Source: Styela clava (Eukaryota > Chordata > Ascidiacea > Stolidobranchia > Styelidae). From it: a stretch of DNA of 64,000 nucleotides. Each line of letters starts with the position of its first letter. The first letter of the stretch is position 1. This document shows, piece by piece, positions 21,186-63,954 of the stretch. A program made the translations under genes and the position numbers. The notes under the pieces were generated by a model that was not told where the DNA came from, made no database searches, and worked only from the letters and a program-made list of their open reading frames with translations. The DNA lies in assembly GCF_964204865.1 (NCBI RefSeq), contig NC_135252.1, positions 2,170,001-2,234,000 of the forward strand, given 5' to 3'.

Positions 21186-22446
21186 CTAGATATACACAGG
21201 ACGAACACAAGTACATCCCACACGGATTTCTTCTTTTCCTAGAGTGAACAATCCCGTAGAAGCATTTATAAAAAAGGCTCGAGCTTCTGCTTTAATCAAC
21301 TGAGACAAATATTCCATCGTTTCTACTCCTGTACTTGGATTGATACAGCCTTTACAAAGACATTTATTTTGAAGAATGTATTTTGGGAACCTGTAATATG
21401 AATAACCAATTATTAAAACAAATATCAGCGATGTTACTTTTTAAAGAGTTCTGTTCATACTTAACTTTATATGTATTTGCATTATAATGTTTCGATATTC
21501 TACTCATGTCGTTTTACATATATTTACTCCAATATTAAAAACTCGTACCTGTCTTTGTTGTATGTTAGTTCGTCGTCATATGGAGACAAACTTCGCAGCC
21601 CGTCCATCTTTTGATGCTTTTCAAAATATTCTCTGTTCATGACTGGACAACTCGTTACGGATCTCCTCTTTCTAGCGTGCATTTTAGGATGCTTTCTGAA
21701 GGCATTTGTTCTGGCTTCCTCCATTTCCGACATTGTTGCTTTTAGCATGTATTCTTTTGTTTTTTGCATCAACTCGCTGTTCATTATATTGTTACATTCG
21801 AGCCTGAAAAGATATTTCAATTTGATTTATGTTGCTGAAATATTTCCGTCATAAAAGAAAAAAAAAGATTATCACAGACTAACTTTAATTCATTCCTATC
21901 GTCCAGTTGTCAGAAACATTACCAAAAGAATTTAGTAGTGAGTCAATGGTGGCGCACGATAAATGCTCTTTTAGTTATCTAAATGACTCTATGTGTATAT
22001 CACGATCATAAAGTTCGCGATGACTTGTTTATACGTAGTTTAATAACGACGCATCGTTATTTAGCTCTTTTAGTTATCTATATAAGGAAGGTAGCGAATA
22101 TTCTCGACGAACGCATTGACATAAAAATACATTTTTATCTAGTTATTTGAACAATGAACAATTTGTCTTCGAAAGGAAATACTAGTTTAGAATGCCAAAA
22201 AGTAATTCAAATGAGAGAGGAATCAACTTTGACGCCACTTTTCGACATAATCTTATTTACTTACATCGTTTGTTCAGAGGCCTCTTCAGTTTTGCCTAAG
22301 AGCTGCTCACAATCAAATTCTGATTCTATTTCCGCTATGATATCTAAATGCGGGTGAAACTTTTGCTGTTGCGCCACAGTAATCTGGTACATTGCACTCA
22401 AAGTCAGTCCAATTCCTAGCACAAATACCGCTGATTGAATTTCCAT
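21186..22446 (-). CDS. IL-17-like secreted cytokine B with furin-type pro-segment
   Basis: Exons 22265-22446, 21549-21803 and 21186-21390 (TAG stop), introns phase 2, 213 residues. Layout: signal peptide about 1-25 (hydrophobic FVLGIGLTL); FDCEQLLGKT with C46; C64 in LECNNIM; a charged helix (EYMLKATMSEMEEARTNAF); dibasic R105-K-R-R108; CPVMN with C113; RSLSPYDDEL; DRFPKYILQNKCLCKGCINP; C-terminal VGCTCVRPVYI. The segment from C113 onward matches the mature IL-17 domain in order and spacing (CP start, RSxSPx, RFP/RYP, CxCxGCI, GCTC). The basic site would release a mature protein of about 105 residues. Family role: secreted dimeric ligand of IL-17 receptors. The next relative downstream on this strand is gene A, 4.5 kb away. 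The assignment to the family is firm; the subtype is not determinable. Confidence 0.9.
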
Positions 22447-25400
22447 TTCTTTTTTATTGTTACTTAGTCGTATATATGTATATATATATAAATAAGATTT
22501 TGAAACGTTCTTCTTGGATTTTCTCAATGAATGATTTCCAATTGGATCGAAGAGCCAAATATAAATACCCGAAAGGTCGCAACCGCGTCCTCTTGTGGTA
22601 TGAAAATAACCATTTTCAGTGTATGTATCATTTTTGAAAAAATTAAATTCCGTGATTTGGTTATGTGCGCTTTCGTCACGGTGCGTAATTTGCATATGTC
22701 GTTTTATTCCAATTAACTCATAGCATTACTTTCATAGTATAGAATGCTAATAAGTGCATTACATTAAATATAGTGCATTTCATCATATTATTAGTTATAG
22801 TAGTAATATATTAACTCCGAAATACTATTAAATTTTGATCATGTCGCTAAAGGAGTGTACAGCATTGACAGGAATCGGAAGGGTGAAAAAATAGAGCAAC
22901 CAAAGACGAAAATAATTTGATAAAAATAGAAATTCTTATCTAAGATGTCGAGCAGAAACTTGAAGAAAACGCATAAAATATTAGGCTTAAAATTGGTTGA
23001 ATACATCCGGTAGTCGCAGCTAGTATCGCGAATCCCCAAATCAGTTGTCTGGTTTCGTATTCGACTTGGAATAGCGAATGAGTCTAAAATAATTATTAAT
23101 TGGCATTCGTCAAATTAGTCGAGAATACATATAATTGGAAACGTCATAGTCTTCCTTCCTAAACGGGAAATGTCTGGCAGTTTTGTTTGGCGTGTTTAAG
23201 AATTGAGCCCAGCTAAATGACAAAGATTCGCCATGCATTTCAATAATTGTGTTTGGATATCCAGTATATAACGTGATTCAGTGTGGAAAAACAATAGTGC
23301 ATGCTCCTCAAATAGAGCCGTTTTAAAAGCAAGAATGGAAATCTGGTTTTTACTTTACCAGATTTTTCAATTCCAATTTTACTTTAAATATTTCAACTGA
23401 AACTGCTGTTAAGAACTTTGGGCAATTTAAAAACTTGACATTTACGACATAAAATTATTGATTTGAAATACAAGTATTTAAAATTAGCAGCATTTGTTAC
23501 ATATACTATAAGCAGAAGAGGTGAGAGAATTAAAAAAAAATCACTTAGCCTATTTTGGTCATGTATTGAAATATAGTAAATATATTAAAAATATTCACTG
23601 TGAGGATGATTCCTTTTGTTATTTCCTATGCATTTATATGTAATACACATCATGCTTTAAGGTGTCATTGAAATAACTCATTTACGTTGACCTGTTCCAT
23701 TCATAAAATCATCGCAGTGACGCACCTAAATGTTATGACATAATATGAGGTATGTCACTTATATTTTCACGTCTACACGTGATTTATTCTAATTATATTA
23801 TATCGTTCCCCATTATAGAATTCGACGGATGCGCATTTGACTCATTTATAAACATGTTGGAACTTAAATTTTGAATGTAATTATCCGAGAAATATATATT
23901 ACCATTTAAATCAACACATAATTTGAAGGCAACGAGGATATAAAAGCTTAAACACGAAGAAAATCGAATCATTTGTTTGTTTTGTAGCAAGGCTAGGTGT
24001 AATAATCAGCATTTCACGAATATCAGACAATATTTTATGATGACGTCATTAGACATATGTAGTCGTAACTTGCATCCGGCATCCTAAAGTATTCGCTAAC
24101 TTTGTATATTACGAGCATCCTTCAATTAATGACGATATACCGTGTCGATTTCTACTGCCTTCGTTGTCGACTTATGGTCGGGTATTATGACGTCATGTTA
24201 ATGTAAATCACTACAGATTTATTTAGTTTGGGTAAATAGGTGGTATTTCAAATTTGTGTATTCCACGTCTTGTACAATTCTATGAATTTTACCATTCACT
24301 ACCTATCTTAAACTAAACTTTTTTTGGCAAGCTTCATTATGTATTTGCAAGATGACATGACCTGGAAAAGCTATTTCAAAATAGAATTTTAGCTGAAATT
24401 TTCATAAATCTATTTTGAGGTATGTTGAAGTAAAGACAAAATGAAGTGGCAGTGATTACAAATCAATTCCTTTAAAGTTCAACTTTATAAAAGATCAGAA
24501 ACTGAAATTGATCCAATAGTATGATTTTATGGAAATTCATCGACGCTTTCTAAAATTAATTGAATTCGAATTAATAATTCTATTGGGTAGAATGTGGGAA
24601 TTTCCAGCGGCTGGGAAACGCCAACTCTCTATAGAACGTGATATGAGGAGTCAGATTACTTTTCTCAATACTCTGTGGTGCACAACATGCTAATACACTA
24701 TTTGTTACGCATAAATTGTTAATGTCATAAAATAAAGTAAAATGCAAGCACACACTCACCAAATAAAGAAGTGCATGTCTGCGGATGACGGTTTCCATGT
24801 TTTACTTCACCCGAAAGACCGCTTTAATTTTATTATTTTTGATATAAATTATTTTTTGTATACTGTCCTAATTAGTTCTAGAGTTTCATTCTTGGAAGTT
24901 CAACAACAAAATGATTTTAAAGAGCAAGAAAGCACGTAGTTAGTGCACACTTAACTAGTAATGAAACACGACTTTCAATAACTAACCGTACATGCATTAG
25001 CAATCCCCTTCGAAATAAAAGGAATATTATGGTTACAATGATTCGTTCACACGCCATACTTCAATTCTCAACAATTGTGAGAAATACTAATTCTGATGGT
25101 GCTAATTATATCCCAAGAAAGCGATGAATTTGTTCGCGTTGCTTTTTTTTATTTGTATATTTTTCAAGGTAAAGATGCCATTACAAAATTTCAAAATATT
25201 TTCCTAACGAATGAGTAATGTGAATAAAAGTAAACTTGAATATCTTCGAGTACAAGAATCAGTACCTTTAATTTTTTGGAATAGCGAGTAAAATATAAAT
25301 TTAGGCAACTACAAAACGCTGATTTGAGAGAGGATCGATCTACAATTAGGACCAAAAAGAATCAGTTAAAGATGAAATTTTTATTTTCTTCGGGTTTCAA

Positions 25401-28170: not shown

Positions 28171-28389
28171 AAAGTGCGACATGGAATTGAATAGCTAACA
28201 ATTCAACGCGTAATATCACAGTTCTGAGGCACAAAACCAAGCCAATTATAAGCACCATTTAAAATAATAATAATATTCTGCTCTTGCAAGTTTTCTTTTA
28301 TCAGTTCAAGAAGAATTGCAAAGAAAGTTTTTTTCTTTTTTATTTCTTATAAATCATTACTATTATGTTTTACAAAGACGAATTAACTT

Positions 28390-30468: not shown

Positions 30469-30610
30469 ATCTAGATGCAAATGGGATCAACAAAGTCATC
30501 GCATCTATGCAGGAGCAATACTTTTTATAATCAGATTCATTTCGCTTCTGTGAACGAAGGCGAAAATGATCGCTGACTCAGTAGCCTTGCTGTAAATTCA
30601 CACATTTTAC

Positions 30611-37056: not shown

Positions 37057-37310
37057 TATTGGAGTATTGATGTGCACGATATGCACATGAGGGTTATTTT
37101 GCTAAAAACACGATGGAATGAAAAGAATAAAATCACTTATCTATAAATCGAATTCGATCGGGAATTTTTTGAATACCGAATATTTAAAACAACCCTCAGT
37201 TATATAAATATATTTTAAAACGTGTGGACATGAAATGCATGAAAGAATATATGTCAAATATAAAAAATATTCCAGTGAACGAACACTAGCAAGAGATGTT
37301 GTAGTCATCA

Positions 37311-40300
37311 TCAACTGTTATTAGGAAACGTTGCTCCATCGCCCCTGCAATGATCTGAAACAAAAAATACTTTATAAAATAATATTTTTGTTCTAAACCT
37401 TACACATTTCGAAGAAAGATTGATATCAGTATTTGAAATCTCTTTTTTATCGAGACTTGTATTACTGATTATAAATAAAACTGTAGTTCTAGAGATCATG
37501 GACATTTTGTGTACTAGATTTTTGATATTTTGTCATAAAGGCCTAAGTAATGAAAAACGCAGTGAATAAGTTTTACCTTGATCCATCTTTGCAGGTTGTA
37601 ATTCAATTTCAAGTATGTCGGAGCTCACCTTCAAATATATATAGTAATGATTTTAAAAACGGGATTGATCTCATTTATACTTAACTCAAGTCGAAGTGAA
37701 TCTGGTACGATATACTGAGCCAGACATATTCCAGTCTATTTTTACCACCAAGTTCCTGTACGCCCTATGCCTATCTAATGATACATAGGAAGATATCTCG
37801 AGAAAAGAAAAAATTAATATGAGTTTATACGCAAGTGTTCTACATCGCCTATAATTCAATAATTTGTCTGTATCGTTAGAAAAATAAGTATATACAGTAT
37901 ATAAATCTGATTGTTGCACTGTCCCTTGTACCAAATACCGTTATTTGTTATATCTGAAAGTTTGATTGTTCTTCGCTAGCCGATTTCCTACCTATTCTTC
38001 TTATCGGCTCTTTTCTCTCTTTGACACTGAATTGAATGCTTTGTTTTTCAATGTTAATTATTATTTAATTACCTTTAGAGTCTCCAGTTTAATTTGGGCA
38101 ACTGCCCCAAACATTGCCGCCAATGTAATTTCCTGAGCAACATCTCTCTATAAAATTAAAAATAAAAACATTTCACAGAATCTGAATAAAATAATGCTGA
38201 CTAATATTTGATATATTTTTCCCTTTTAATATTAAAATTGAATCATTTCGATAATTTAGATTATAAAATTTGTACAAACCAATTCTTGTTCGATCTTTAG
38301 ATCTTTCCAAAGATTTTGTTTTTCAAATCTCTCCTCTTCTTCCTGATACAACAAAAAATTCAAACATCAAACTAAATTATATGAATAATAGGGGCTCCCG
38401 AAGTATGCGAACCAAGATGACGGACATCGGAATGTGATATGTGTACTAGGTTAGGGTTAGGCCATAATTTTAGGTATAAATACTACGGGAGGCTCTTGGC
38501 TAGTCTTCGAACTGATAATAGGACTAAAATAAGAAAAATTGGAAATAAATTATGGCCAACCCTAACCTGTTACCCATGTTACGTTCCGATGTCCGCCATC
38601 TTGGTTCGCATACTTCGGGAGCACCGAATAATATTTATAATGCACGATAATGATTACATAGATTAAATTTTGAATGATTTTTGTTACATTCACCGCTTAG
38701 ATGACATACATATAAATTACCTGTTTAATTGAAGAAAAGTACAATATCTGATCTATAAATGATAAGTTCAAAGAAGCGTGCATGGTTACAGCTCTCTCTG
38801 ATAATCATGAATCAAATTGAAAATATTCCAGAATATTACCTGTTTCTGCATCTCAAACTGCTGCTTTGCATGTCTGTTTGATACGCAATCAAAATCGTCG
38901 ATACTCTAAAAGATAGATTTGTGTATAAGATAATTAATGAAATAAATTGATTTCTTCAAAGATTATTTATTTTCACAGATAGTCAATGCATAAATACACA
39001 TACCGAAGATAGCGAAGATATTTCACTCATGGTGCTATCCTGAGAACACAAAAATGAAAATTGGAGTGAATTTATAACAGATGAAATTTCCAAAATCCGT
39101 ATTCGCTAAATAATGTAAAGATGCGCACAACGTGTCGAATTTTTGCACGAATGCACCTGCGGTTTTATAAAATAACTGCTTTTAATTAGCGCTTGAACAC
39201 GATTAAAATAAATATGGTATATTGAATAAGTTTATTTCTAATTATTTATACATTTTTAATTTGTTCTGGTTTATTAAATAATAGGTCAATATGAATTGTG
39301 TGGTCTGAGATCTCAGGATAATCCAGAATATTGTGCCATAGGTTAAATACCCACCTGAATGTTTTATATAACTTGTTTGGAAATTCAATACCAACAATAT
39401 GCACTTACCATAGACAAGGACGATACATAAGTCAAAGAATAATCCTGTTAAAATGAAAAACAATATAAAGATTAGTATTAAAATTATCGATGTAATTTAT
39501 TTAATTGGAAATTTCTGATCTTTTTATCTAAATATTTCTTTGCAGTTTTATAACCTTTTTGTTTTGCAATGTCTCGGGCCATTTGGGCACAGGGGGAAAA
39601 GAAGATTTTACAATAAGGAAAACAATAATGTACATCATAGCTAGAGCAGAGATGCTGTTAAACGATAAATATACTACCTTCGTTCAAAAAAAGCAAATGA
39701 TAAAATTACATATCATGAATACGTCCAATAGTTGGCATATAAACTTAATCTCTGCGTAACAAACAGCTAACTTCAATTAAAATGTTATATTAAAATATTA
39801 TAACAAATCTTAAATATCATATTTCGTCAAACTATTCAGACTCTTTTTCATACCGTTGATATCGAAGAAACTTCCCATTGCATATCTTCATCCTGTTGCG
39901 AAATGATGATTTAAAAATTAATGCACTACAAACCATAATTGCAAATGAAAAATGATTGTCTGTCGGTAAATGTATTTATATTCGTATGTTATAAAGTAAA
40001 TTATATTTTGGATTTATGGTATATTCTGAATAATTATTAAAAAGAAACTTTTTTGTGATATCTGCGATTTAGTCATCAAAGAGATAGAGAGAAATATAAT
40101 TTGTGTCTTTCATTTACTAGATAAAACTAAAAAATCACAAATTTTAACTGTTAATTTTTTTTTTATATCTTTGGCTTCAAACAATAACTCTTTTAAAATA
40201 TAATATAGAATGTTATGAAGGAAACTATTTGATGGACTATTTTCCTTCATCACCAATTAAAATGAAAGGAATCTCAACTGTAATAGACATAAATAAAGAA

Positions 40301-42587: not shown

Positions 42588-42881
42588 GATAACAGTATCG
42601 TTAACATTTCAATTCAACTGCTCGTTGTAAATGAATTTCTTGGATTTTAATGCAATTTGCAAATATTGTTTGAATTGTGACGTCACAATCAATGACAAAT
42701 TAAAAATTCATTCAATAGGTTTCAAGAATCTCACTGAGAAACTGTGTGAATTTGTTTAATATATGGTTAGTGTTCGTAATGGTGAACGACAAATTTGAGA
42801 GAAAGTCGCCAAGATGACAAACAGAACTTGCTGATATCTTGCTACACATTTTGGTGGTAACAAAAACAGGTATATAGACAG

Positions 42882-45114: not shown

Positions 45115-45220
45115 TAAATATATTTTAAAACGTGTGGACATGAAATGCATGAAAGAATATATGTCAAATATAAAAAATATTCCAGTGAACAAACACTAGC
45201 AAGAGATGTTGTAGTCATCA

Positions 45221-48200
45221 TCAACTGTTATTAGGAAACGTTGCTCCATCGCCCCTGCAATGATCTGAAACAAAAAATACTTTATAAAATAATATTTTTG
45301 TTCTAAACCTTAAATCTTTCGAAAAAGGTTGATATCAGTATTTAGAATCTTTTTTTTATGGAGACTTGTATTACTGATTATAAATAAAACTGTAGTTCAA
45401 AAGTTTCATGGACATTTTGGTGTACTAGATTTTTGATGTTTCGTCATAAAGGCTTAAGTAATGAAATATTTAATATTCAACAACTCAAAAGCAATAGACG
45501 AATGTGTTTAGAAAAATGAACATTTGTATTTTCGATTCCACAGACTCGAATAGAAAGAAATTCGTTGAAAAACGCAGTGAATAAGTTTTACCTTGTTCCA
45601 TCTTTGCAGGTTGTAATTCAATTTCAAGTTTGTCGAAGCTCACCTTCAAATATAGTAATGATTTTAAAAACGAGATTGATCTCATTTATACTTAACTCAA
45701 GTCGAAGTGAATCTGGTACGATATACTGGGCCAGACATATTCCAGTCTATTTTACCTTCTGCTGGCCCTACGCCTATCTAATGATACATAGGGAGATATC
45801 TCGAGGAAAGAAACAAATTAATATGAGTTTGTACGCAAGTGTCCTAGTTCGCCCATAATTCATTAATTGTCTGTATCGATAGAAAAAAAAGTATATACAG
45901 TATATAAATCTGATTGTTGCACTGTCCCATGTATCGAATACCGTTATTTGTTATATCTGAGAGTTTGTTCTTTGCTATCGGATTTGCTACCTATTCTTCT
46001 TATCGGCTCTTTTCTCTCTTTGATACTGGACTAAATGCTTTGTTTTTCAATGTTAATTAATATTTAATTACCTTTAGATTCTCCAATTTAATTTGGGCAA
46101 CTGCCCCACACATTGCCGCCAATGTAATTTCCTGAGCAACATCCCTCTATAATGTAAAAATAAAAACATTTCTAGAGAACTAAATATTTCGCAGAATCTG
46201 AATAAATTAATGTTGATTATTATTTGATATATTTGTCGCTATTAACATTAAAAATAAATCATTCGAAATTTTAAATTATAAAATTTGTACAAACCAGTTC
46301 TTGATCGATCTTTAGATCTTTCCAAAGATTTTGTTTTTCAAATCTCTTCTCTTCTTCCTGATACAACAAATAAATTCAAACATCAAAACTGTATTATTTG
46401 GATAATATTTATAATGCACGATAATGATTACATAGATTGAATTTTGAATGATTTGAATTTTGTTACATTCACCGCTTAGATCATAGGTTCTCAAAGTGCT
46501 CCGTACGGAGCCCCAGGGCTCCGCGAGAGAAACCCAGGGGCTCCGCGAGCTATTCGATTACTCTTCAAAATACTGACTCAAAATTTTGTAACTGTTCAAA
46601 GAAGCAATAACAGCTTTGATAACATCTGACAACAATATAGCCTCGAAATATGGTAAAGGGCCGGAATTAAAAAATGACATTATTTATGAGCAGTAGCGCA
46701 GCCAGGATTCTCAAGAGGGAGGTGGTTCAAAATTGGAATCGGAAATTTCCGCGCAACATTTTTCGCGATTAAAAAAACGGATAACGAGATTTCTGTTGCG
46801 TAAAATATTCAATCCAAGACCGATGGAGCGTTTGACGTGTCTCGTCGGTATAATGTAGTTGTGCTCATCGTTACTCACGTTTGATTCGAGATTACTATTA
46901 GGATTACTAAAATGAAAGAATACTATTCTAAAATAACATAAAATATGTGATAAACTGCCATCTATAAATAAATTGGTGTCGTATTTTTGCGATCTTGGTA
47001 TTTGTCAAACTTGATTTGTTCTTTCGCACTTGAGATTATTTTTAAGCAAGATATCGCTGTTTAAAAAATCACAATGTCTGGGGAAAATACGAACAATTGA
47101 AAATTATTTTATTGCATTCAGCTCCGTCGGTAGTTTCAGAATGAAAAAAGGTACATCGCGGATCGCGCGCACCATTGATTGCGTGCGGCTGCGTCGGTAG
47201 TTTCAGAATGAAAAAAAAGGTAAATCGCGCGCACAATTGACTGTGTTTCGATTTCGCAGCTACTACGATGAAAACCTAACATAACACCAAATTTTGTGAT
47301 TTACAATGTCTATAGAAGCGTTTTCAATCTGAGGTGAGTCTGCTGAAACCAAAGTGTGATCTTCCATTTTAAGTTTCAGTTTAAATATTTTAGAATGCCG
47401 CTTTTCAATCAAGAAATTTGAGTTGTGGATTTACCTTTTCATTGATTATTATTTTTAGCATTTCGTCGCCGATGACTATAATATGGTAACATGTTTTTCA
47501 CATTGAACTCATAATTCCCCACGAGAACAAAAAAGCAATTAACGTCGTCATTGTGTAACAATACATGTATATGCCGAGGGAAATTTTTGATTTAGGGAGA
47601 ATAAACAGCGGCGTAAAGATGTTTAAAACACGCCATGCTGACGGAAAAAATCGGCGATTGTAACAAAATGAAATAGCGCACGTTACTAACGGCCTTTTAA
47701 TTGAGTCTTCCAAAAATGTCAAAAAAGAAAAGATTCAGCATTTAGAATAAATAAAGTACTTTTAACTTGTTCGGGAATAATAATCTGAAAGTAACAATTT
47801 TAAAATTTATTTTGGGGCTCCGCGAATAATATTCAACCTTTCAAGGGCTCCGCAACACCAAAAGTTTGAGAACCCCTGGTATAGAGCATAGGTTCTCAAA
47901 GTGCTCCGTACGGAGCCCCAGGGCTCCGCGAGAGAAACCCAGGGGCTCCGCTAGCTATTGGATTACTTTTCAAAGTACTGACTTGGCTAATTTAAAACTG
48001 TTCGTAGAAGCAATAACAGCTTTGATAAAATTTGACAACAAGATATCCTTGAAATATGGCAAAGTGGCGGAATTAAAAATGACAATATTTATAAGCAGGA
48101 GCGCAGCCAGAATTCTTTAGAGGGAGGAAGTTCAAAATTGGAATCGGAAATTTACGCGCAACATTCTTGGCGATTCAAAAAAAAAAAACGGATAACGAGA

Positions 48201-51200
48201 TTTCTGTTGCGTAAAATATTTAATTCATGATCGATGCGAGCATTTAAAGTGTCTTGTCGTAATAATTCAATTGTGCTCATCGTTACTCACGTTTGATCAG
48301 AGATTACTATTAGGATTGCTAAAAGGAAAAAATACTATTCTAAGATAACATAAACTGCGTGATAAACTGCCATCTATAAATAAATTGGAGTTGCATTTTT
48401 GCGATCTTGGGATATGTTAAACTTGATATCGCCGTTTGAAAAATCACAAGGGTTGGCAAAATACGAACGATTGAAATTTATTTTAGTGCATGCGACTCTG
48501 TCGGTAGTTTCAGAATGGAAAAATGGTACCTAGCGCGCATAATTAATTGACTGTGTTTCAATTTCGCAGTTACCACGATGAATAACCGAAGAAAACCTAA
48601 CATAACACCAAATTTTGTGATTTACAATGTCTATAAAAGCGTTTTTATTCTGACGTGAGTCTGCTGAAACAAAACTTATATACAAAACTTATCTTTCATT
48701 TTAAGTTTCAGTTCTAATATTTTAGAATGCCGCTTTTTAATCAAGAAGTTTGAATTGCGGATTTACCTCTTTATTAACTATTATTTTTTGCATTTCGTAG
48801 CCGATGATTATAATATGGGAACATCTTTTTTAAATTGATTTCATAATTTCCCACGAGAACGAAAAAGCAATTATCGTCGTCATTGTGGAACAATACATGT
48901 ATATGCCGAAGGGAATTTTTGATTTAGGGAGAATAAACATTGGCGTAAAGATGTTTGAGGTTTAAAAACACGCCATGCTGACGAAAACAATCGGAGATTG
49001 TAACAAAATACAATCGCGCACGTTATTAGCGGCCTTAAGTCTTCCAAAAATGTCAATAGGGGAAAAGATTCGACCACTAATTTAAAATTTACAGCTTTAG
49101 TCTCTTACAATTTATCTTTGAAAAAGGTTTAGTATTTAAATTGAGTAAAGTACGTTTAACTTACTCTGGAATATTAATCGGAAAGTAACAATTTTAACAT
49201 TTATTTTGGGGCTCCGTGAATAATAGTCAACATTTTCAAGGGCTCCGCAACACCAAAAGTTTGAGAACCCCTGGCTTAGATGACAAACATATAAATTACC
49301 TGTTTAATTGACGAAAAGGACAAAATTAGTAATCTATAAAAGACAAGTTTAAAAGAAGCGTGCATGGTTACAGCTCTCTCCAATAATCATGAATCAAACT
49401 GAAAATATTCCAGAATCATACCTGCTTCTGCATCTCAAACTGCTGCTTTGCATCTCTGTTTGATACGCAATCAATATCGCCAATACTCTAAAAGATAGTT
49501 TTGTGTATAAGATAATTAATGAAATAAATTGATTTCTTCAAAGAATATTTATTTTCGCAAATAGTCAATGCATAAATATACATACCGAAGATAGTGAAGA
49601 TATTTCACTCATGGTGCTATCCTGAGAAACACAAAATTGAAAACTGGAGTGAATTTATAACAGATGAAATTTACAAAATCCGTATACGCTAAATAATGCA
49701 AAGTATGCGCACAACGCGTTGAATTTTTGCACGAATGCACCTGCGTTTTTTTTATAAAATAACTGCTTCTAATTAGCTATTGAACACGATTAAAATAAAT
49801 ATGTTATATTTAATAGGTTTATTGGTCTAATGGTCTAATACAGGGGTGCACAACACGGGGCACGCGTGCCAAATTTGGCACGCCATACGCTCAAACATGG
49901 CACGCGAACTGTTTTGTAAAAAAAAAAAATTATTCATGATATACATTAAAATATCACGTTTATATCAAAATCAGCAGTTTTTCAGGACATTAAACTGTTT
50001 CAATAAATAGATATTCGTTATTATGTAATATTATTGAAATTTGTTTGTTTTACGGGAGGTAATGTCCAATACCAATGATTGTGCGCGGCACGCGACAAGA
50101 TTTTTTCGAAAAATTTGGCACGTGTCCTCATTTGAGTTGTGCACCCCTGGTCTAATAGGTCTAATTAAATATACATTTTCAATTTGTTCTGGTTTATTAA
50201 ATAATACGTCAATATGAATTGTGTGGTCTGAGATCTCAGGATAATCTAGAATATTGTGCATAAGGTTAAATACCCACCCAACTTGTTTGGAAATTCAATA
50301 CCAACAATATGCACTTACCATAGACAAGGACGATACATAAGTCAACGAATAATCCTGTTAAAATGAAAAACAATATAAAGTTTAGTATTAAAATTATCGA
50401 TGTAATTAATTTAATTGGAAATTTCTGCTCTTTTTATCTACCTATTTTCTACGCAGTTTTATAACCTTTTTGTTTTGCAGTGTCTCGGCCCATTTGGGCA
50501 CAAGGGGAAAAGTAGATTTTACAATAAGGAAAACAAAAATGTACATCATAGAGCAGATATGCTATTAAACGATACATGGACTACCTTCGTTCAAAAAAAA
50601 GCACATGATAAAATTACATATTATGAATACGTCCAATAGTTGGCATATAAACTTAATCTCTGCGTAACAAACAGCTAACTTCAATTAAAATGTTATATGA
50701 AAATATTATAACAAATCTTAAATATTATATTTCGTCAAACTATTCAGACTCTTTTCCATACCGTTGATATCGAAGAAATTTCCCATTGCATATCTTCATC
50801 CTGTTGCGAAATATGAATTAAAAATTAAAGCACTACAAATCATAATTGCAAATGAAAAATGATTGTCTGTCGGTAAATGTATTTATATTCGTATGTTATA
50901 AAGTAAATTATATTTTGAATTTATGGTATATTCTGCTTAATTATTAAAAAGAAACTTTTTCATAATATCTGCGATTTAGTCATCAAAGAGATAGAGAGAA
51001 ATATAATTTGTGTCTTCCATTTACTAGATAAAACTAAAAATCACAAATTTTAACTGTTAATTTTTTTTTTATATCTTTGGCTTCAAACAATAACTCTTTT
51101 AAAATATAATATAGAATGTTATGAAGGAAACTATTTGATGGACTATTTTCCTTCATCACCAATTAAAATGAAAGGAATCTCAACTGTAATAGACATAAAT

Positions 51201-53518
51201 AAAGAAAAAATATGGTCATTGGATACAAATAATATCAACACCACTAATTGCTTCATAAACAAAGCAATAATAAACAACAATATAAAGTTATTGACATATG
51301 GCAGAGTAGTAAAATTGTTGTAATGATAATACTAAGAGCCATCATTTTTTTAATCGCATTGGTATTTAAGATCTAATTATTGCAACCGGCACCGACCCAA
51401 AGCAAACAATGTCTCAATTTCCAGATCCTGGTAAAACAAGATTACCTTCTCGTAAAATGAATCCAGCGCTATATTTTCTGATCGATGAGATTGTGACCTT
51501 ATTTCTCCAAGATCATCAAAATTCTGGGAATTAATTTGTATAAATATATGTTGTTAAAGTTAACGTTAGTTCACCCAAGAGAATAAAACGTTACTATTAA
51601 ATGTCAATAAGATTTACATGAATATTACATTTTTTGGTGCTACTGAAGTATGCGCACCAAGATGTCGCACAACTTGAACCCGGTACTGGTACACAACCTG
51701 AATTCAGGTTGTGCGCCATCTTGGTGCGCATACTTCAGGAGGTTCCATTTTTTGTTTAAACCATGGTTAACAAAGGAATAAAGTAAAAATGTTGAAGCTT
51801 AAATGTATATCCGGTTGAATAATAATTGAATATTCTAGTTCGCTAAATAATTTTGCGCTATTTTCTTGCAATGGTCAACGACATCTGCTGCATATTTATT
51901 CAGAATAAATTTTATTGTAACAGAAAATAATCGTTGATGTATAAATGTGATTTTAATGATTTTACTCACGTCGTCCATTTTATTCCTGTTTGACTTCATG
52001 CCATTCTGAGTCTTTGAAAAGCATTTGGTAAATATCTGACAAATTAATAAGTACATTTATTACAAGCAAATGAAATATGAATTCCTATTTTTTCTGTGGT
52101 TTACCTTCATCTTTGAATTCAATCCCGTTAATTTTGTCTTGTTGTTTGTAACTTTTTTTATCTTACATTTTCCGGACAGACGTGTCCGTTTTTCGAAATT
52201 CTAAAAGAATGTAGCAATTGAGAGAAATGCGAAAGAAGAGCTTTTATCACAGGTAATTAGCGATAATGATAATTTTATGATGACTATAGTTTTCAGCACT
52301 TTCCATTGATGGAAAATTTACTGATGAATGACTTGGTGTCTTTGGTGTTGTTTTTAAACATTAAACATTTGAATCGACAAGTCATTTGTGGCAAACAGCG
52401 CTGCTGCGCAAGGGTTCAAGACTTTTTATGAAATAACGTCATTTATCCAATTATTACCTGCGCTCTGTACGAAGTGTCACAATTTTCTTGTGAGGTATAA
52501 TCATTGGTATCGAAACAATGAAGACAGTCCTAAAATACAACATACAAAAATAAAGAAGACGAGGATATCATTTGGTTTACACATAACAAAATTTATCTAA
52601 AGTGCCAGAATATTTCTAAATATGTCATTTTCAAATTTAACTTCCTAAATAATTTGCAGAAATGAAAGAGTTGGTTAATCCTTTTCTTTTTTACTCACCA
52701 TAACATTATTGATTTTTTTCATTTTTCTTCCAAACCAACTCGCAAATGCAACAATACAATGAATTGCATTTATGAAAGAAGACGATGTTTCCTCATTTTC
52801 TCCTCGTTTCTGGAAAAAAGGTCAATTACTTGAAACATTATTTGATAAGTATAGTCTTCAAAGATTGTGTCGATATGTTTCGGGAGGGGGGTACATCGGA
52901 CACTCAAATTTTGTTTACATTGCAACAGAATTTGTACATATATTACATATATCACAACTCGGAATGTTCAATGTATCATGATAAATTGTTCGAAAAGTGA
53001 TGCAATATATCTTCGGGATTTCATTATTTTTTTTAGTATCAATGATGAAGTCAAGTCAAACACTGAGAATACTTCTGATTCCGAATTTGTATAGTGATCG
53101 ACCCAAGGCAAAGTCGCTTGGCACGAACCATATACGCTGAACAAGAAGAATGACACGAGTAACCACTTGTTCAAATAAGAATCGAAACAGCGAGATGCAG
53201 ACGCTCCTAAGATGAAGTAAATAATTCAGCAAAGCTTATTGCACAAAGTTTCGGAGGCTAAATTTGTCAACAAAAAGAACAATCGCGTGCCCATGAAATT
53301 ATAACGGCCTTCACAGATAATTGATACACTTTTTCATTGTATAACCAACTTTTGAAACAGACAAATTGCACTATTCATTTGATAAAAAGTAGTTTCTCAC
53401 ATACTTGATTCCAACGTTTACGATTCTTACGACTCCGCCGTTTCCGTCCACATGAAATGCGATGGCCTCCATCTTCATCTGGCGGATCAATTACAACTTC
53501 CTGGTGATGAATATTCAT
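45221..53518 (-). CDS. Unrecognised 12-exon gene, copy 2
   Basis: Paralogue of the gene at 37311-42587 with identical exon design. Exons 5' to 3': 53405-53518, 52699-52809, 52105-52200, 51970-52035, 51446-51523, 50762-50800, 50319-50354, 49586-49621, 49422-49487, 46295-46357, the ITLAAMFGAVA exon at about 46073-46147, 45592-45643 and 45221-45264. The first 38 residues (MNIHHQEVVIDPP to KRWNQ) are identical to copy 1. Elsewhere there are conservative changes, for example VSFDKLEIELQPAKMEQ against VSSDILEIELQPAKMDQ, and SIGDIDCVSNRDAKQQ against SIDDFDCVSNRHAKQQ. All exon lengths compared are the same, so the frame is kept. The large transposon insertions fall within introns, between 46357 and 49422 and between 49621 and 50319. 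No known domain was recognised. Confidence 0.7.
46482..47878. mobile_element. hAT-like element E1 of a tandem pair
   Basis: A 1397-bp element with ends CATAGGTTCTCAAA and TTTGAGAACCCCTG, and subterminal GGGGCTCCGCGAG/GGGCTCCGCAACACC. It is preceded by GCTTAGAT (46474-46481). It is followed not by that TSD but by GTATAGAG and then a second copy (E2). No transposase frame is visible, so it is non-autonomous. Confidence 0.85.
47887..49273. mobile_element. hAT-like element E2 of a tandem pair
   Basis: A 1387-bp near copy of E1 in the same orientation, starting after the 8-bp spacer GTATAGAG (47879-47886) and ending TTTGAGAACCCCTG. It is followed by GCTTAGAT (49274-49281), the partner of the TSD in front of E1. 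In duplication unit 1 the empty site reads CCGCTTAGATGACA once (38694-38707). So E1, the spacer and E2 together behave as a single insertion. Confidence 0.85.
49841..50149. mobile_element. 309-bp hAT MITE in unit 2
   Basis: Ends CAGGGGTGCACAAC and GTTGTGCACCCCTG (perfect 14-bp inverted repeats), flanked by an 8-bp TSD GTCTAATA (49833-49840 and 50150-50157). The interior has GGCACGCG-rich subterminal motifs. It is absent from the same place in unit 1 (near 39235). Inserted in an intron of gene copy 2 after the duplication. Confidence 0.93.
51637..51746. mobile_element. Short hairpin MITE, unit 2 copy
   Basis: Counterpart of 40731-40840 with the same ATTTTTTG flanks (51629-51636 and 51747-51754). 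Inverted halves share CTGAAGTATGCGCACC and AAGATG. Confidence 0.8.
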
Positions 53519-54033
53519 GGTAACAGTATCGTTAACCTTTCAATCCAACTGCTCGCTGTAAATGAATTTCTTGGATTTTAATGCAATTTACAAATATTGT
53601 TTGAATTGTGACGTCACAATCAATTACAAATGAAAATTCATTCAATAGGTTTCGAGAGTCTCATTGAGAAACTTTGCGAATTTGTGTAATATAATATGGT
53701 TATTGTTCGTAATGGTGAACGACAAATTTGAGAGAAAGTCGCCAAGATGACAAACAGAAACTTGTTGATATATTGCTACATATTGTAATGTAAACAAAAA
53801 TAGGTATATAGACAGATTTTGAAAGTAGCCTAATTCCCGACAGTCAATGTTCCATTTCCCTTTTGTGATGGAAAGTGATGTTTTTACATAAGACTACTTA
53901 TTTTGTATTCCACGCTATGTTGTTGTCGCTGAAAATATAGGCCCGAGTCAAACCTAGGGCTTGGAGTGTTGGTAATTTCAGGGTTATATCTATAATGTTT
54001 TGTGGCAAAATAATGTTTCAAGTCACACTAGAT

Positions 54034-57000
54034 CAGTGGTTCTCGAACTATTTTTACTTGCTACGCACTGAGAAAATAATAAAAAAGTTTGCGGCACACT
54101 AATAAAAAATAAAGTTAGCTTTGAACGAATTTATATTCAATAGTTAATGCGATTGATGTGCTTATTTTGAGAAACAAATAGGATTGAAACGTGGTTCCGT
54201 CGTTGCCAAGCACACCCGCATTTTGTAGTCAATTCCAAGAGGTCGCTGCCTTTTCCGCATATCATTTCAGTCAGAGCAGAAAATACGTGTTGACAGAACC
54301 AAGAAGATGCAATGGCAAGCTTATTTTGATGGCTTTTCAAATTATAAAACAATCACTCAAGCTCATAAACACACTTCATACACAAACTAAGAAAGGAGAA
54401 GAAATCACATAAAAAGTAGAATGCAGTGTCGGAAAAGTGCGACCCCTCTGGTCACACCCAAAGCACGAAGAGCAGTCTGGTTTCCAAAAGCATAACTGCC
54501 GAGAAAACTATCCACAAATGTGCTGAAATCCACCACTTTGCTAGAGGCAAGAGGAGCGACATAACTCCTCATACTCTGAGTGCTTCCGATGGGCCGCGTC
54601 ATCCATAGCGGCTTCGCCGTTGTCGAATGGGCACACCACATATTTTACTACGGGAGTACTACGACTTGATTTCCTCCAGAATCAAATTTGGCGGCAGCAT
54701 CACAGCTGTTCTAGCGGTGTGCTCTCTACAAACTACGTCAACATCGCACCTAGAAAACCTGGTTGGTGGTAGGTGAGCCAAGATATCTTCCTGCACCGAA
54801 TCGTGCCGCTACTTGATGATATTATTGACTGGGCGACAGTGATTCAAAACATGAAGAAGAGTCTCGTTCGCGTAACCACACCTGCTACAAGTCACCCGTG
54901 GTTCCACATAAGCCGTAAACCGTGTACGAACGGATCGCAGCGGCAGAAGATTTAATCGAACTTTTAAAACCCACGAAATCTGAAACTAGGCAAGAGAGAC
55001 AGACGTGGAGAGAAAGTAGTTGAGCAATCGAACTGGGAATGACAGGAAACTGTCTTCCCCTGGTACCGAAGCTCGCCCACCGCCTCAACCAACGGGTGTT
55101 GGACACTTGGGGCAACACCCGTTGACGGTCACATCAGGCGCACATCGTAACTGGTAACCGACGTCCGGCAAACCCTTGACGCCCCGGAGAAAAACGTCCA
55201 TCACCATGTTAAAAATGATTTCCGAGAGAGGGCATCCTTGACAGACTCCACTATCTGATGGAATAGAGGAGGTGTCACCATCGATAGTTCGAATGGTAAA
55301 CACGTTATCCATGTAAACGTCAGCAACCGTTTCCAATTTGTACCAGGTGCGCCAAAATGTTGCAGGACTTCGAGAATGGTTCCATGCCTTACCGACCCGA
55401 AGGCATTACGAATGTCAAGCCACGCCACATGAAGATTACGCTTATGTTTCTTGACATCCGCAATGACCGAATCAAGCATGAAAACATTTTCGAAGACGCC
55501 TTTGGAAGGAACGAAGCCCTTCTGTTCCGAGGAAATCACTTTCCAACTACATGCCCAAGACGGAAGACGACGTGCAATCACGACCGCATAGATTTTTATA
55601 CAGCGTGCGGCAGATTGCGATGGGTCTCCAGTTCCCGATGTCATTCATATAACCTTTATGCCCTTCAGGTCCTTGGGAATAAGGATTATCCCAGAGGAAC
55701 GTCATAAACTTAAACTACGCCGGAAACTCCTGCAGATTTCAAAGAGCTTGGTGAGAATTTCACCCCGTTTGTCAATGCGCTTCCAAACTCCATAGGTGAG
55801 CCATCTGGCCCCGGGGAAGTGCTAGTTTTTAAATCCCGCATGACCGAAAAAACTTTCGCCGCACTGACAGTCACGTCCTCCTCTACCACCACGTTACCGT
55901 GGTGGTGAGCGCTTTGGGACATCCACAAAGGCATCGTCCAGTCACCATCTCCGTGCGGAGCCGAATCAGTGCAATATTTCTCTTCTAGTATCGATGATGA
56001 ATGAAGTAGAGCACCGCAGACCACCAGTGAATCCTCGATGATCGATCTAACCGTGCTTCTTCGGATTTCTTCAAAAAGCCGTCCTCAACTGTGGACCGAA
56101 CCCCAGCCGATAACCACGTTCGTCGTTCAATTAGTTTTATTTGGCCCGTTTCTGGGCTGAACGTGAATAACGGTTTGGGGACCGGCGTCCGGCACTCTGG
56201 AAAACAGAGGCACGGGTAGACCAAAGTTCAAACTGTCCCTCAAGATGGCGAACGCCTCGTCTGGCGAGGACATCGAGACACATTCATTCACCAAGTGAAA
56301 AAGTTTTTGACGCAGCTCCTCCAGGTTTAGAACACTCAAAGGAACCGCACCTTCCTGGGGAGATGAACTCTGGCGATCATCCGGCGCAGAAATTAAGCTC
56401 TGATGTATCATGGTTAGCGTGGGGGTAGGAGTGGCTGCATTAATAATTTTTGCAACCACAGGAGGATCCGGAATATGGGTAACTACGGGCTCAGGCTCAA
56501 CCACGAGAATAGGCGAGGTCGAATCCGAAACCGCAAATACGACAATATCAGATCAACAGGACCGGAATTTTTGGGCTTACTCACGATCTCAATTACTATT
56601 TCAGGGCTTTGGGGCGACGGGGTAACTACAGTGAATAAGTGTGGATCAGGTTTGGGTTGGGGTGAAGCTTCGTCCCATGCCGTACGCAGCCACGACAACA
56701 ACGACTACATTTCGGAGTCCCTATTGACAAAACAGCACACGGCCTGGAGGCGCCTTTAGGCGGAAATTCCTTTATTAGAGGTCGAATTTGACTGAGGGGG
56801 GATTCTTTACGGCCATAGGAAGGGGAAGAGGTTTTACTTTACGGGGAGGAGGTTCTGGTGTCGCCAGCTTCAATTATATGGTGACAATCACCCTTGCTAC
56901 ATCGAAAAGGCAATTCAATATTATTATCAGTTATCTGCTAATAACTGCGCAGCACTTACGTCTCACAAGCATGTCCGTTGCGTGCATGCCTATGTGTTAT

Positions 57001-57101: not shown

Positions 57102-57109
57102 CACTAGAT

Positions 57110-58003: not shown

Positions 58004-59306
58004 TTATGAAATATCCGGTTGTACACAGGTACATCCAACGCTAATTGACTGTTTTGCAAGTCGATAAGAAGATTTTCCTCCTGTTTTCTGCAAAAATATT
58101 CTTGATTGTGCAGTAACCAGATGAGAGATAAAATCCGTTGTTTCAGTTCCTAACGTCGGCTTGATGCAACCATCGCAGAGGCAGTATTTTTGGGCAATAA
58201 ATTTAGGAAAACTGTAAATAAAATAGTAATAAAGTAATTAATTATATTATTAAAAATAGCAAATTTATACTCATGCACCGTATGTAGGCTACTCATCAAT
58301 AAAATTCTATGTTCATGTTTGTATTGAGCAGTTTATGCCCATCAAACCAAAATTTGAAGTATGCGTGACCAAGTTCTAATATACATGTATGTTATACAAT
58401 ATAAAACCATTTAAAACAGTCGACTGACGAAAGTGTTCTTACCGTGTTGGATTGTAATCCAATTTTTCAGCATACGGTGACAGACTCCTCATGCCACTCA
58501 TCATGTCATTTTGTTTCAAATAAGCTTGGTTCATAACTGGACATGGAACTTTTGGGATTGATCTTTTTGGTCGAAAAATTGTCTCTTTTTTCGAATCATG
58601 ATATTCTTGTCTAGCTTTCTCCAACTCATCTTTTGATGCTGATTTGATATATTCCCGAGTTGCCCGCATAATGTTTGTTGACATTAGTAAATTGCATTCC
58701 TTACTGGTGCAAGAGAAACAAATGAATAGATTATAGATAATGAAGAGCATATAAAATTAGTTAAATACTCAATCAACGATGTATTATTCAAGGTTGTTTT
58801 TTGAAATAATCTTATAAAAATAATATGTTCTGTTTAGTTAAGGTTTTAAACTGTGAAAAGTATATAGGTTTGAATATATATATTTATACACGGTGTGTTC
58901 AGTGGTATTTTAATTTGGGCTTATATTGAGAAACACGAATCTCTTTGGAGTATATCGCAATGTTATAACACTCTTCCAAAATAAATAGGCTTAGTAGTCA
59001 CAAATAAATCAAGTTGCATTGCAAGTTAAAGCCATCTGTAAGACTAACTCGTGATAATCAGTCCAATTAGGTTTTACATAATGGTGTGAAAGAGGTCTGA
59101 ATCGGTTCGGCTATACATTTCTCTTACAACGAAATTACTTACAGTAATATATCTGTATGCTTCCTGGTTTCTCCGTACAACCCAACGCAATCAAATTCGT
59201 CCTCGTGTCGTTCTTCATCAATTTCCATTGCTGTGCTTAGTTCAAAAACGCACAATAATGTGATGAGAACGATATTACGGGAAAGTTTAGAGTTAGACTT
59301 TGCCAT
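58004..59306 (-). CDS. IL-17-like secreted cytokine C with furin-type pro-segment
   Basis: Exons 59143-59306, 58443-58703 and 58004-58211 (TAA stop), both introns phase 2, 210 residues. Start MAKSNSKLSRN was chosen because it gives a clean signal peptide (NIVLITLLCVFELSTA, about 11-26); an upstream in-frame ATG at 59360 would bury it. Then FDCVGLYGET with C40, KECNLLM with C58, helix TREYIKSASKDELEKARQEY, cleavage site R99-P-K-R102, VPCPVMNQAYL, GMRSLSPYAEKLDYNPTRFP, QKYCLCDGCIKP, and C-terminal ISVGCTCVQPDIS. The mature domain would be residues 103-210. Closest relative in the window by eye is gene B or D. A TATA-like ATATAAAG lies near 59397-59404. It is transcribed in the same direction as gene D, 1.8 kb away. 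Confidence 0.92.
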
Positions 59307-59396
59307 AATACTCTTTGGTAAGATTGAAAAGTCTTGAATTTTATTTGAAATTTGCACCATCTGCTTACCGTTGAGACTTTTTCAGTTTACTTAGTC

Positions 59397-59404
59397 TTTA
59401 TATT
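59397..59404 (-). promoter_or_regulatory. TATA-like box of IL-17-like gene C
   Basis: Minus strand reads ATATAAAG about 91 bp before the proposed ATG at 59306, at a plausible distance for a transcription start near 59370. A GT-rich donor-like CAACGGTAAG just downstream could indicate a leader intron, but this is not established. Confidence 0.4.
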
Positions 59405-61103: not shown

Positions 61104-62245
61104 TCAAAGATTACCAATTATGGGATAAGCACAAGTACAACCAATATAAATTGACAATTTCTTTTTCGTCGTGAAAGTATTTAAAAATTTATCCTTTTTA
61201 TAAAAGAATTCCATACGGGTCTCCAACGGCACAGATTGTAAGGAAAGGTTTTCTTTTCTCGTCACGGGGTCGATGCACCCATTACACAAACAATGACGCT
61301 GTATAAAGAATTGGGGATATCTGTTGAAAAAGAAAATAACTCAAGTTGAGTGATCATACAGACCCACTAGGTTCAATGTCTTGAATATTACTAATGATTG
61401 AATATAATATATTCCACTTGCTCATTTGTTTGCGCGACTGCGAAAGTTACATACATATAAGTATCAGAATGGAATTTTTATCTGGATTATCCCAGTTTGA
61501 TTTTGTGCAATGTCTACATGATAAAATTGGCATTCCTTCAATATATGACGGATTCATCTTTTTTTTATTGGAGAGAGGGGACGCGTATACACACAAGCAT
61601 ATCGTCACGCTAATAAAAAAATGATTAATTCATTTTTATCAGTTTTCAGTGACAAAAGAAAAAAAAACACCCTGAGAATTTTGTCGTAGCAGGATTCAAA
61701 CTAAATTATTCGAAACTAATATTACCTGTTGGGGTCCCAATTCGGTTTTTCGGCATAAGGCGACAAGCTTCTTCGCCCATCCATTAAATTATTTTCTCTG
61801 AGATATTGAGGAGTCATCGTAGGACATTTAGTGATTTCTCTTTTTGGTCTATTTGACGGAGGGGAAAAATATTCTTGCTTTGCTCTCTCAAGAGTCATAT
61901 CGTCAGCAAATATCAAGTATTCTTTTGATTTTTTCATAACTTCAGTTTTCATTAATATTTCGCATTCCTTTCTATAAATAAAATAAAGCATAATGGTGTA
62001 TCTGGAGTTAATTTTGGCTCGATTGCATTAAATCTAGATTTTGTACAAAAATAAACTTACAGTAAAATTGTTGTTTCTTCTGCTGTTTTGCCGCGAAGTC
62101 CAATACATTCATATTCATTAAGTATTGTATTGCGATCATGTATACTAAATCTACTATCTTTTGTGGAATTCGACAATGAAAAATGGGAAAACAAAATCAC
62201 AATTAAAACACGAAGAGAAACAAAGCTGAAAGTGTTCGCGACCAT
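61104..62245 (-). CDS. IL-17-like secreted cytokine D with furin-type pro-segment
   Basis: Exons 62061-62245, 61726-61971 and 61104-61320 (TGA stop), introns phase 2, 215 residues. Signal peptide about 1-26 (VSLRVLIVILFSHFSLS). Then YECIGLRGKT with C47, KECEILM with C65, a helix (SKEYLIFADDMTLERAKQEY), cleavage site R103-P-K-R106, KCPTMTPQYL, DGRRSLSPYAEKPNWDPNRY, PQFFIQRHCLCNGCIDPVTR, and C-terminal IYIGCTCAYPIIGNL. The IL-17 landmarks (CP start, RSLSP, RYP, CLCxGCI, GCTC) are all present. The gene is arranged head to head with gene E (starts 947 bp apart), which may allow shared regulation. Function by family: secreted ligand of IL-17 receptors. Confidence 0.93.
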
Positions 62246-62304
62246 GGCGTATTTTCTGCAGTGTAAGCACGATTACAAAACTTACATTTTAAATATAACT
62301 CCAT

Positions 62305-62313
62305 CTTTTATAG
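62305..62313 (-). promoter_or_regulatory. TATA box of IL-17-like gene D
   Basis: Minus strand reads CTATAAAAG, 60 bp upstream of the ATG at 62245. It closely resembles the TATATAAAAG before the divergent gene E, and both are followed by GATG. Confidence 0.6.
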
Positions 62314-63109
62314 TAAAATTGCTGTACAGGAGTAATGGGAAATGGATTTTTTGGCGATTCAGAGGTCAAGGTTTCCGGGCATTTCCCCAACTATATATAG
62401 AAATATACAGAATGAGGAAGCACGCCTGAGTAACTTACTAAACGTGACATGGTAGCATTTCGAAACCTCTTGTCGAACGACAGCAAGTGGATTACATGAG
62501 TGCATTTTAAGCAAACCGTTCGAATAAGTATCCATGTTATTATTGGCCAGTGTTAAGTTGGGAAACAAATGCAATGAATACACGGGTCTTTATTTTCATA
62601 TATTCAATGAAATAGATATAAATGTAGAGATTGCAGACAAATGACGTTCTCCCTTATTCCGAAAAATAAGATCATCTCACAAAACATCAATATAATTTCA
62701 CACATTTCTAGACGATGTTTTTTATTTATGCAGTCGCGGAAATCACAGTACAGGAGTTGCGGGAATACTTCTACGGTCTATATTAGCTAATAAGGCTTGA
62801 AAGAAACATATTAAAATTTCCAAGCGGAAAGTACTAGAATACCATCGTCATCGAGTTGAATCACGATCCTGTACAGTTATATGAGTGCAATCGGTCTTTA
62901 ACTAATTGATATTGGAGGCTTGAATACTCATGCTATTAATGGGTCAGACAAATTCCAGACAGATTGGAATGATTCATAATTAGTTTTTATGTGTGACGCC
63001 AACAAAACCGTGGGGAAATTTCAGACCACAACTGAATGTATATTACTAAATGGTATTTTTGATGCTTCTATTTTTGCCACATTTGCGTTCCATGGAAATC
63101 TAATAAAAT
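62314..63109. promoter_or_regulatory. Bidirectional intergenic region between IL-17-like genes D and E
   Basis: About 0.8 kb between two divergent TATA boxes. A Rel/NF-kB-like sequence GGGGAAATTTC lies at 63012-63022, and GGGCATTTCCCC at about 62378-62389 is a weaker candidate near the gene D side. These are matches by eye to the GGGRNNYYCC pattern, not proven sites. Confidence 0.35.
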
Positions 63110-63119
63110 TATATAAAAG
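63110..63119 (+). promoter_or_regulatory. TATA box of IL-17-like gene E
   Basis: TATATAAAAG lies 73 bp before the ATG at 63192, followed by GATGCAATG. This puts a likely transcription start near 63140-63145. Confidence 0.6.
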
Positions 63120-63191
63120 ATGCAATGTTCGACTGATTCTTGGAAACATAGACTAATTATACAACGGAACATTTAGGATAAAATTTGCAAC

Positions 63192-63954
63192 ATGCCAATG
63201 ACTAATATCGGTAAAATGAGTTTTCTTTTTGTAATGGCGTTTCAGCAAGTAAGCAGCGTATTACCAAATGTAATGAAGGCTGAAATAACTCGGGAAAAGT
63301 TGAAATCAGAATATGATTGCATAGGGCTCATTGGAAAATCCGAAAAGGATACTAAAATGCTGTTGTAAGTACGAGTTTTTTGGAGAATAGTCAACATATT
63401 CAGATATACCTTTGCTGATCTAAATCCTGTTCTTTCAGTCCATTCTGAATATTTGGAAGTCGGAACGATTTCCAGTAGACTAATTATATAATATAAAAAA
63501 TATTCTGTCATAGAAATGCTACTAGCATTCAAGATATCATATAGATGTGTTACGATAATCAGTCCACTATATTAATAATAAAATAAAAATTAGTAAATAA
63601 TAAATTAAAGTCAAAAATCAAATGGAATATGTAATGAAATGTCATTAAAAATAAGATGACGTATCATTGTTTCGTTTAATTTTTCTACATTCGCAGACGT
63701 GATTGTGAGTTCGCCATGAAATCGAGTGTGATGACTGAAACGAAAAAGTTTATCGAAAACGCCGTTGTGGAAGAACTAACAGAGATTATACATAACTATT
63801 TTGAGAAAGATCGTGCAATTTTTGCCAGACGTAAAAGATTCACAGATATGGATTGTCCGACGCTGAATAAACAAGATTTATCATCAAACGCAAAAGAAAT
63901 GAGAAAGAGAAGTCTTGCTCCTTTTGTGTATAAACCAGATTTTAATCCTAACAG
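63192..63954 (+). CDS. IL-17-like secreted cytokine E, first two exons (partial)
   Basis: Exons 63192-63364 and 63697-63954; the third exon, with the CxCxGCI and GCTC motifs, would lie beyond the window. Both visible intron phases are 2, as in the other four genes. Start ATGCCAATG was chosen because it gives a hydrophobic leader (MSFLFVMAFQQVSSVLP); a second in-frame ATG opens MSFLFV, so the start may be internal. Then YDCIGLIGKS with C43, RDCEFAM with C61, helix (TKKFIENAVVEELTEIIHNY), cleavage site R102-R-K-R105, MDCPTLNKQDL, RKRSLAPFVYKPDFNPNR, and the donor AG/GTTGGT. The RSLAPF variant replaces the RSLSPY of genes B-D. It diverges from gene D. Confidence 0.9.

Follow-up and report, generated by a model that had tools for sequence, protein, structure and literature searches.

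We found that four of the five IL-17 genes in a 64,000-nucleotide stretch of the Styela clava genome (C3:2170001-2234000 of a 376.6 Mb, 379-contig genome; hereafter the window) encode a cysteine pair and a basic, convertase-type site between the signal peptide and the IL-17 domain. We named the five genes A to E, B to E being those with both features. Eight more genes of the B-E build (F to M) were modelled in the same genome, giving 12 pro-type genes. Sequence comparison across these paralogues gives good support for a conserved cysteine pair and for a convertase-type site that precedes the mature domain. We estimate a probability of roughly 0.68 that the genes encode secreted IL-17 precursors that are cut by a convertase, releasing a disulfide-closed pro-segment.

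IL-17 genes in the window

Genes A, B, C and D lie on the minus strand and exons 1 and 2 of gene E on the plus strand. Each of the five has three exons with GT/AG ends, two phase-2 introns and an open reading frame (ORF). These are transcript-free gene models with hand-chosen exon ends, and their signal peptides were judged from hydropathy alone. The features of B to E are listed below; positions without a contig name are those of the window.

21186..22446, minus strand: gene B; exons 22446-22265, 21803-21549 and 21390-21186; 213 amino acids; GT/AG ends, phase 2
22309..22311, minus strand: B pro-segment Cys 46 (exon 1)
21794..21796, minus strand: B pro-segment Cys 64 (exon 2)
21662..21673, minus strand: B convertase-type site RKRR, ending 4 residues before the Cys of Cys-Pro
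58004..59306, minus strand: gene C; exons 59306-59143, 58703-58443 and 58211-58004; 210 amino acids from the second in-frame ATG
59187..59189, minus strand: C pro-segment Cys 40
58694..58696, minus strand: C pro-segment Cys 58
58562..58573, minus strand: C convertase-type site RPKR, ending 6 residues before the Cys, in predicted coil after helices
61104..62245, minus strand: gene D; exons 62245-62061, 61971-61726 and 61320-61104; 215 amino acids
62105..62107, minus strand: D pro-segment Cys 47
61962..61964, minus strand: D pro-segment Cys 65
61839..61850, minus strand: D convertase-type site RPKR, ending 4 residues before the Cys
63192..63954, plus strand: gene E, exons 1 and 2 (63192-63364 and 63697-63954); whole protein 212 amino acids
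63318..63320, plus strand: E pro-segment Cys 43
63704..63706, plus strand: E pro-segment Cys 61
63827..63838, plus strand: E convertase-type site RRKR, ending 5 residues before the Cys
C3:2234491-2234698: gene E, exon 3, 537 bp after exon 2 and just past the window end

An earlier in-frame ATG at 59360 lengthens the gene C product from 210 to 228 amino acids. The products of B, C and D matched the Pfam IL17 family (PF06083) with E-values of 7.3e-18, 2.6e-18 and 4.1e-17, respectively, scoring 62.8-66.6 bits against a curated cut-off of 24; IL17 was the only family to attain its Pfam cut-off in these three. Exon 3 of gene E, outside the window, matched the same family (53.3 bits, E 1.2e-11), and the part of E within the window matched no Pfam family. 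In a profile search, the closest PDB chains were those of IL-17F (4.4e-17), aligned over the mature domain only.

Genes D (62245, minus strand) and E (63192, plus strand) are arranged head to head; 947 bp separate their start codons. A TATA-like string occurs 44-136 bp 5' of the start codon in all five genes A to E; the DNA is AT-rich, and the chance rate of such a string was not computed.

Cysteine pair and basic site in genes B to E

An earlier reading of the letters without database searches (the sequence-only reading) had placed cysteine pairs at residues 46/64, 40/58, 47/65 and 43/61 of B, C, D and E. The spliced models bear out these positions. The phrases FDC, FDC, YEC and YDC, and GKT, GET, GKT and GKS, are present in B, C, D and E, respectively, as that reading had said, and the four basic sites end at the listed distances before the Cys of Cys-Pro. 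The spacing of exactly 18 that it gave does not mark the class: 17 residues separate the pair in B to E and in one further gene, L, and the spacing differs in the other 7 of the 12.

We shuffled the segment from the second pro-segment Cys to Cys-Pro in each of these four genes separately. In 0.5-1.6% of shuffles per gene, a site arose among the final 12 residues preceding the Cys. Across all 12 pro-type genes, shuffling each segment produced a site in 0-4.5%. The joint figure for 9 out of 12 genes is 6e-17; it assumes independent genes and has descriptive value only, because the paralogues are not independent. The segment shuffles, together with the recurrence across genes, rule out a chance motif.

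The 12 pro-type genes across the genome

With full models for A to M, the cysteine pair is found in all 12 pro-type genes, and the first intron, in phase 2, falls between the two cysteines in every one. The spacing is CX17C in B, C, D, E and L, CX11C in F, G, J and K, CX10C in H and I, and CX13C in M. An R-X-[KR]-R site lies 4-8 residues before the Cys in nine genes (B, C, D, E, F, G, H, J and L), and in these nine the pro-segment spans 48-66 residues from the first Cys to the end of the site. Thus, the proposal that the pattern is kept amid divergence holds for the cysteine pair, whereas the spacing varies and the full consensus is confined to 9/12.

Leaving out cysteines in the first 26 residues, 11 of the 12 genes have exactly two pro-segment cysteines (M has three), and 11 of 12 have six in the mature chain (K has seven, the extra one being its last residue). 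Two plus six cysteines would fit separate disulfide sets. We aligned 11 pro-segments, omitting gene I because it nearly duplicates H. Only the two cysteines form invariant columns, and the other ten segments are 10-34% identical to that of B. High-scoring Arg columns in this alignment are partly set by the cutting of the pieces at the site. We also ran a profile of the 12 second exons over 7,583 ORF segments drawn from the window and from the surveyed parts of the genome, with some 6 kb represented twice. It found its own 12 at E 3e-17 or better. The next ten matches were weak (E 0.001-0.057) and lay in the stretches of groups II and III (described below); we did not count them as members.

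Two of the pro-type genes are tandem near-copies of each other:

C5:14717574-14718597: gene H, tandem near-copy of I
C5:14723827-14724850: gene I, tandem near-copy of H

H and I show 12 coding differences, all 12 amino-acid-changing and none silent; one of them falls at P2 of the site (REKR in H, REER in I). Their introns differ at 3 of 445 columns and their upstream DNA at 30 of 1493. The excess of amino-acid changes is not significant when the upstream rate is included (P 0.17); the value is 0.007 against silent and intron sites alone, and 0.057 for zero silent changes out of 12 alone. The differences are suggestive of rapid adaptive change.

The mature chains of J (C5:15020383-15021650) and K (C5:15027940-15029219) end in long Arg/Lys-rich tails, and both have Cys-Lys in place of the opening Cys-Pro.

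Gene A and the other IL-17 groups

Gene A serves as the contrast within the window:

15698..16652, minus strand: gene A, divergent IL-17; exons 16652-16462, 16231-16118 and 15902-15698; 169 amino acids

It retains one N-terminal Cys (PCDYLENIGKE), and its exon 2 is shorter than in B to E. The second pro-segment Cys is absent from the model, which has neither a CX17C pair nor R-X-[KR]-R.

At least 32 exons in the genome match Pfam IL17. We sorted 32 by hand into A (one), the pro-type genes B to M (12), and the following:

C3:14.84-14.87 Mb and C10:20.16 Mb: group II, nine genes
C5:15.06-15.08 Mb: group III, four genes
C2:18.35-18.38 Mb, C8 and C10:14.76 Mb: group IV, five genes
C1:22.96 Mb: odd IL-17 gene

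Besides the full models of A to M, the survey of pair and site covered all nine group II genes (gene T in part) and two of the four group III genes, read from ORFs. No first exon was found for group IV or the odd gene, which therefore stand outside this survey. All nine group II genes have an upstream CX11C pair. In eight of them the reading reached the mature domain, and none of these has R-X-[KR]-R before it; the part of T that was read has none either; P carries RIRR near its start, and V carries IRKR, which is basic but below consensus. Both features are absent from the two group III genes read. Pair and site are thus separable: group II keeps the pair without the site where it was read, and in I, K and M the pair persists although the site is degraded or gone. 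The group II genes at C3:14.84-14.87 Mb form a second tandem IL-17 cluster; its N-terminal regions are different and mostly longer, and most of its genes have extra cysteines after Ser-Pro-Trp and in a loop.

When the pro-segments of groups I and II were compared with hhalign, 19 columns overlapped in the region of the second Cys (probability 3.8%, E 0.011). This likeness is suggestive; with so weak an overlap we do not claim the two as one homologous domain.

We built a tree of the mature domains from 27 of the 32 genes and two human chains (29 rows), omitting two group III genes, two group IV genes and the odd gene. F to L grouped together (98/97), as did A, B, C, D, E and M (86/90, drawn open), with A on a very long branch; the two group III genes joined the latter set (83/77). 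This placement reflects either loss of the pro-segment features from A and group III or the weakness of the tree itself. The CX17C gene L is placed among the CX10-11C genes, with F (81/68), so that the longer spacing either is ancestral and was later shortened or arose twice.

Other features of the window

Fourteen repeat families occur at 37186-42705 and 45096-53636, each in two copies that are 87-99% identical and mostly 10.6-11.0 kb apart (some about 8.0 or 1.3-1.4 kb). They are probably duplicated transposon-rich DNA. ORF pieces at 5199-5510, 43431-44540 and 55201-56504 resemble, by eye, remnants of transposase or reverse transcriptase.

Proposed precursor and alternative explanations

We propose that B to M encode secreted IL-17-family ligands made as precursors, in the order signal peptide, pro-segment and IL-17 domain. 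The two pro-segment cysteines would pair with each other and close a small loop, to be followed by a helical stretch and then by an exposed coil containing R-X-[KR]-R. A furin-type convertase would cut there, shortly ahead of the Cys-Pro with which the mature domain begins, leaving a mature chain with its own six cysteines. Judged from the sequences, both the cut and the disulfide-closed pro-segment are likely. We infer that the pro-segment, as in other cystine-knot ligands, serves folding, sorting or latency; of these, latency is a possibility that nothing supports as yet.

Structure prediction is consistent with parts of this layout. For exon 2 of C, aligned with its three window paralogues as input, AlphaFold2 predicted helices at residues 2-7, 10-21 and 24-41, with a predicted local distance difference test (pLDDT) score of 78-86 by blocks over residues 1-30. 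Residues 42-58 were modelled without helix or strand, and RPKR lies at 44-47. The helix that the sequence-only reading had put after the cysteine pair is thus predicted for C. A convertase substrate would present R-X-[KR]-R in an exposed position of a secreted protein; here, the motif is present, exposure is predicted from the coil in C and secretion, for A to E, from hydropathy. The genome has 11 matches to convertase P-domain (P_proprotein) exons, a domain that also occurs in other proteins. Seven exons match the SEFIR domain of IL-17 receptors; dimeric binding to SEFIR-type receptors, one mark of the family, is putative for the B-M products. For the pro-segment itself, we found no PDB relative up to E 10; searches of Pfam hit five families, each in 1 of 11 members (best E 0.001, DUF5752), none of which we trusted. 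Among viral contigs, no relative was confirmed.

Several points weigh against the proposed precursor. I (REER) and K (REQR) have R-X-X-R only, and M, with three pro-segment cysteines, has no site, although all three keep the pair. At P1', gene D has Glu and gene E has Phe, both less typical of convertase substrates. Overall AlphaFold2 confidence was low (mean pLDDT 64, predicted template modelling score 0.31), and the model comprises exon 2 only; the first Cys lies in exon 1, so the pair is not covered. Conservation was measured among paralogues of one genome, and the case for B to M is built entirely from DNA sequence and predictions. Finally, the mature-domain tree does not show the 12 pro-type genes to be one clade, since it places A and group III within their ranks.

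The strongest rival is routine trimming, in which a convertase does cut, the front piece is a mere spacer or folding aid, and the uncut protein is equally active. We regard this as a serious contender, at somewhat under even odds. Gene A and group II have no site where they were read, and I, K and M have lost the consensus; the site is thus not required for an IL-17 gene to be retained. Against a spacer, pair and site recur through strong divergence, beyond what a spacer would lead one to expect. A more ambitious version of our proposal, which we hold to be doubtful, is that these are tunicate-expanded latent pro-IL-17s, whose disulfide-closed helical pro-segment holds the cytokine inactive until the convertase cut; sister genes with a worn or lost site would then be constitutive or uncut variants of the same build, a part that we find no less doubtful.

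Other fates of the front piece appear improbable. It might stay disulfide-attached after the cut, making a two-chain cytokine, and both parts are indeed Cys-rich, with three pro-segment cysteines in M and seven mature ones in K; the even counts on each side (two and six) in the other ten genes speak against such a link. It seems just as improbable that the released piece is bioactive in its own right, on the pattern of multi-product prohormones. Peptide precursors commonly carry a small peptide that lies between the signal peptide and a convertase site, and the absence of PDB relatives and trustworthy Pfam matches suits this idea, but the sequence is free to diverge except at the cysteines and no fixed active sequence is visible. 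Hardly better are the chances that the basic stretch goes uncut and binds glycosaminoglycans or retains the protein. The basic C-terminal tails of J and K point that way, as do I and K, basic without the consensus, and some group II genes such as V; against it stand the R-X-[KR]-R order and the distance of 4-8 residues to the Cys, which recur in nine of the 12 genes, and the predicted coil around the site of C.

Comparison with known IL-17-domain precursors

The sequence-only reading had suggested a distinct pro-cytokine class. This is too strong, because crustacean female sex hormone (CFSH) is already a basic-site precursor with an IL-17 domain. In the portions of the sources available, CFSH of Scylla comprises a signal peptide of 23 residues, a precursor peptide of 33, the KR site and a mature chain of 167 residues that has eight Cys (PMC6056722). 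CFSH in Eriocheir is similar, with subtypes with and without the KR site, and subtype 2b, which has no KR site, has two extra N-terminal Cys (PMC9662296); oyster relatives are described without a precursor peptide (PMC8398477). As far as those accounts go, CFSH resembles the predicted B-M products in being a secreted IL-17-domain precursor with a signal peptide, a precursor peptide and a basic site. CFSH-1 differs in having a dibasic KR after a 22-33-residue precursor peptide, where B to M have a longer two-Cys pro-segment and R-X-[KR]-R in 9/12. It also has eight mature Cys in four predicted bonds, against six in 11 of 12 here and seven in K, and it is an eyestalk hormone, a neurohormone of the X-organ, whereas B to M form a large, partly clustered gene family.

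The four knot cysteines (the first and last of CxCxxC and the C-terminal CxC) are present in B to M in the 29-row alignment. In chordate IL-17s, according to the parts available, the third knot disulfide has Ser where its Cys would be, giving SPW where other invertebrates have CPW (PMC4517768, PMC8353272). At the SPW position, the one compared of the two in that disulfide, B to M have no Cys: Ser stands there in 11 of 12 and Ala in E (RSLAPF). The B-M products thus resemble the chordate IL-17s described there (IL-17A/F, IL-17D-like and Ciona) in IL-17 domain, knot cysteines and Ser-Pro-type motif. A term search of the available text returned no hits for cleavage or pro-peptide in PMC4517768 and none for propeptide or furin in PMC8353272. 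Ciona is listed with three IL-17 genes (PMC8353272), next to which the number of exon matches found here would be a marked expansion. The genome looks tunicate rather than crustacean: besides the chordate-type Ser, it has one exon match to GH6 cellulase (E 1.5e-6), which among animals is a tunicate trait. No match to mitochondrial COX1, which would have allowed a check of the genetic code, turned up in the assembly.

Among the literature titles and abstract starts listed, which covered few subscription papers, we found no IL-17 with such a pro-segment and convertase site. Pro-neurotrophins and Spaetzle are cystine-knot-type ligands with a proteolytically removed pro-segment; they belong to a different family from B to M. 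The best fit is a chordate version of a layout already known, distributed across a gene family in which natural losses have occurred.

To our knowledge, IL-17 is treated in the field as active once secreted. Because pair-only, site-worn and site-free relatives coexist in one genome, the question of proteolysis is directly testable here. If the proposed precursor is correct, many genes of a chordate would have both a convertase site and a pro-segment closed by a separate disulfide, and the IL-17 family could be gated by proteolysis, as other cystine-knot ligands are.

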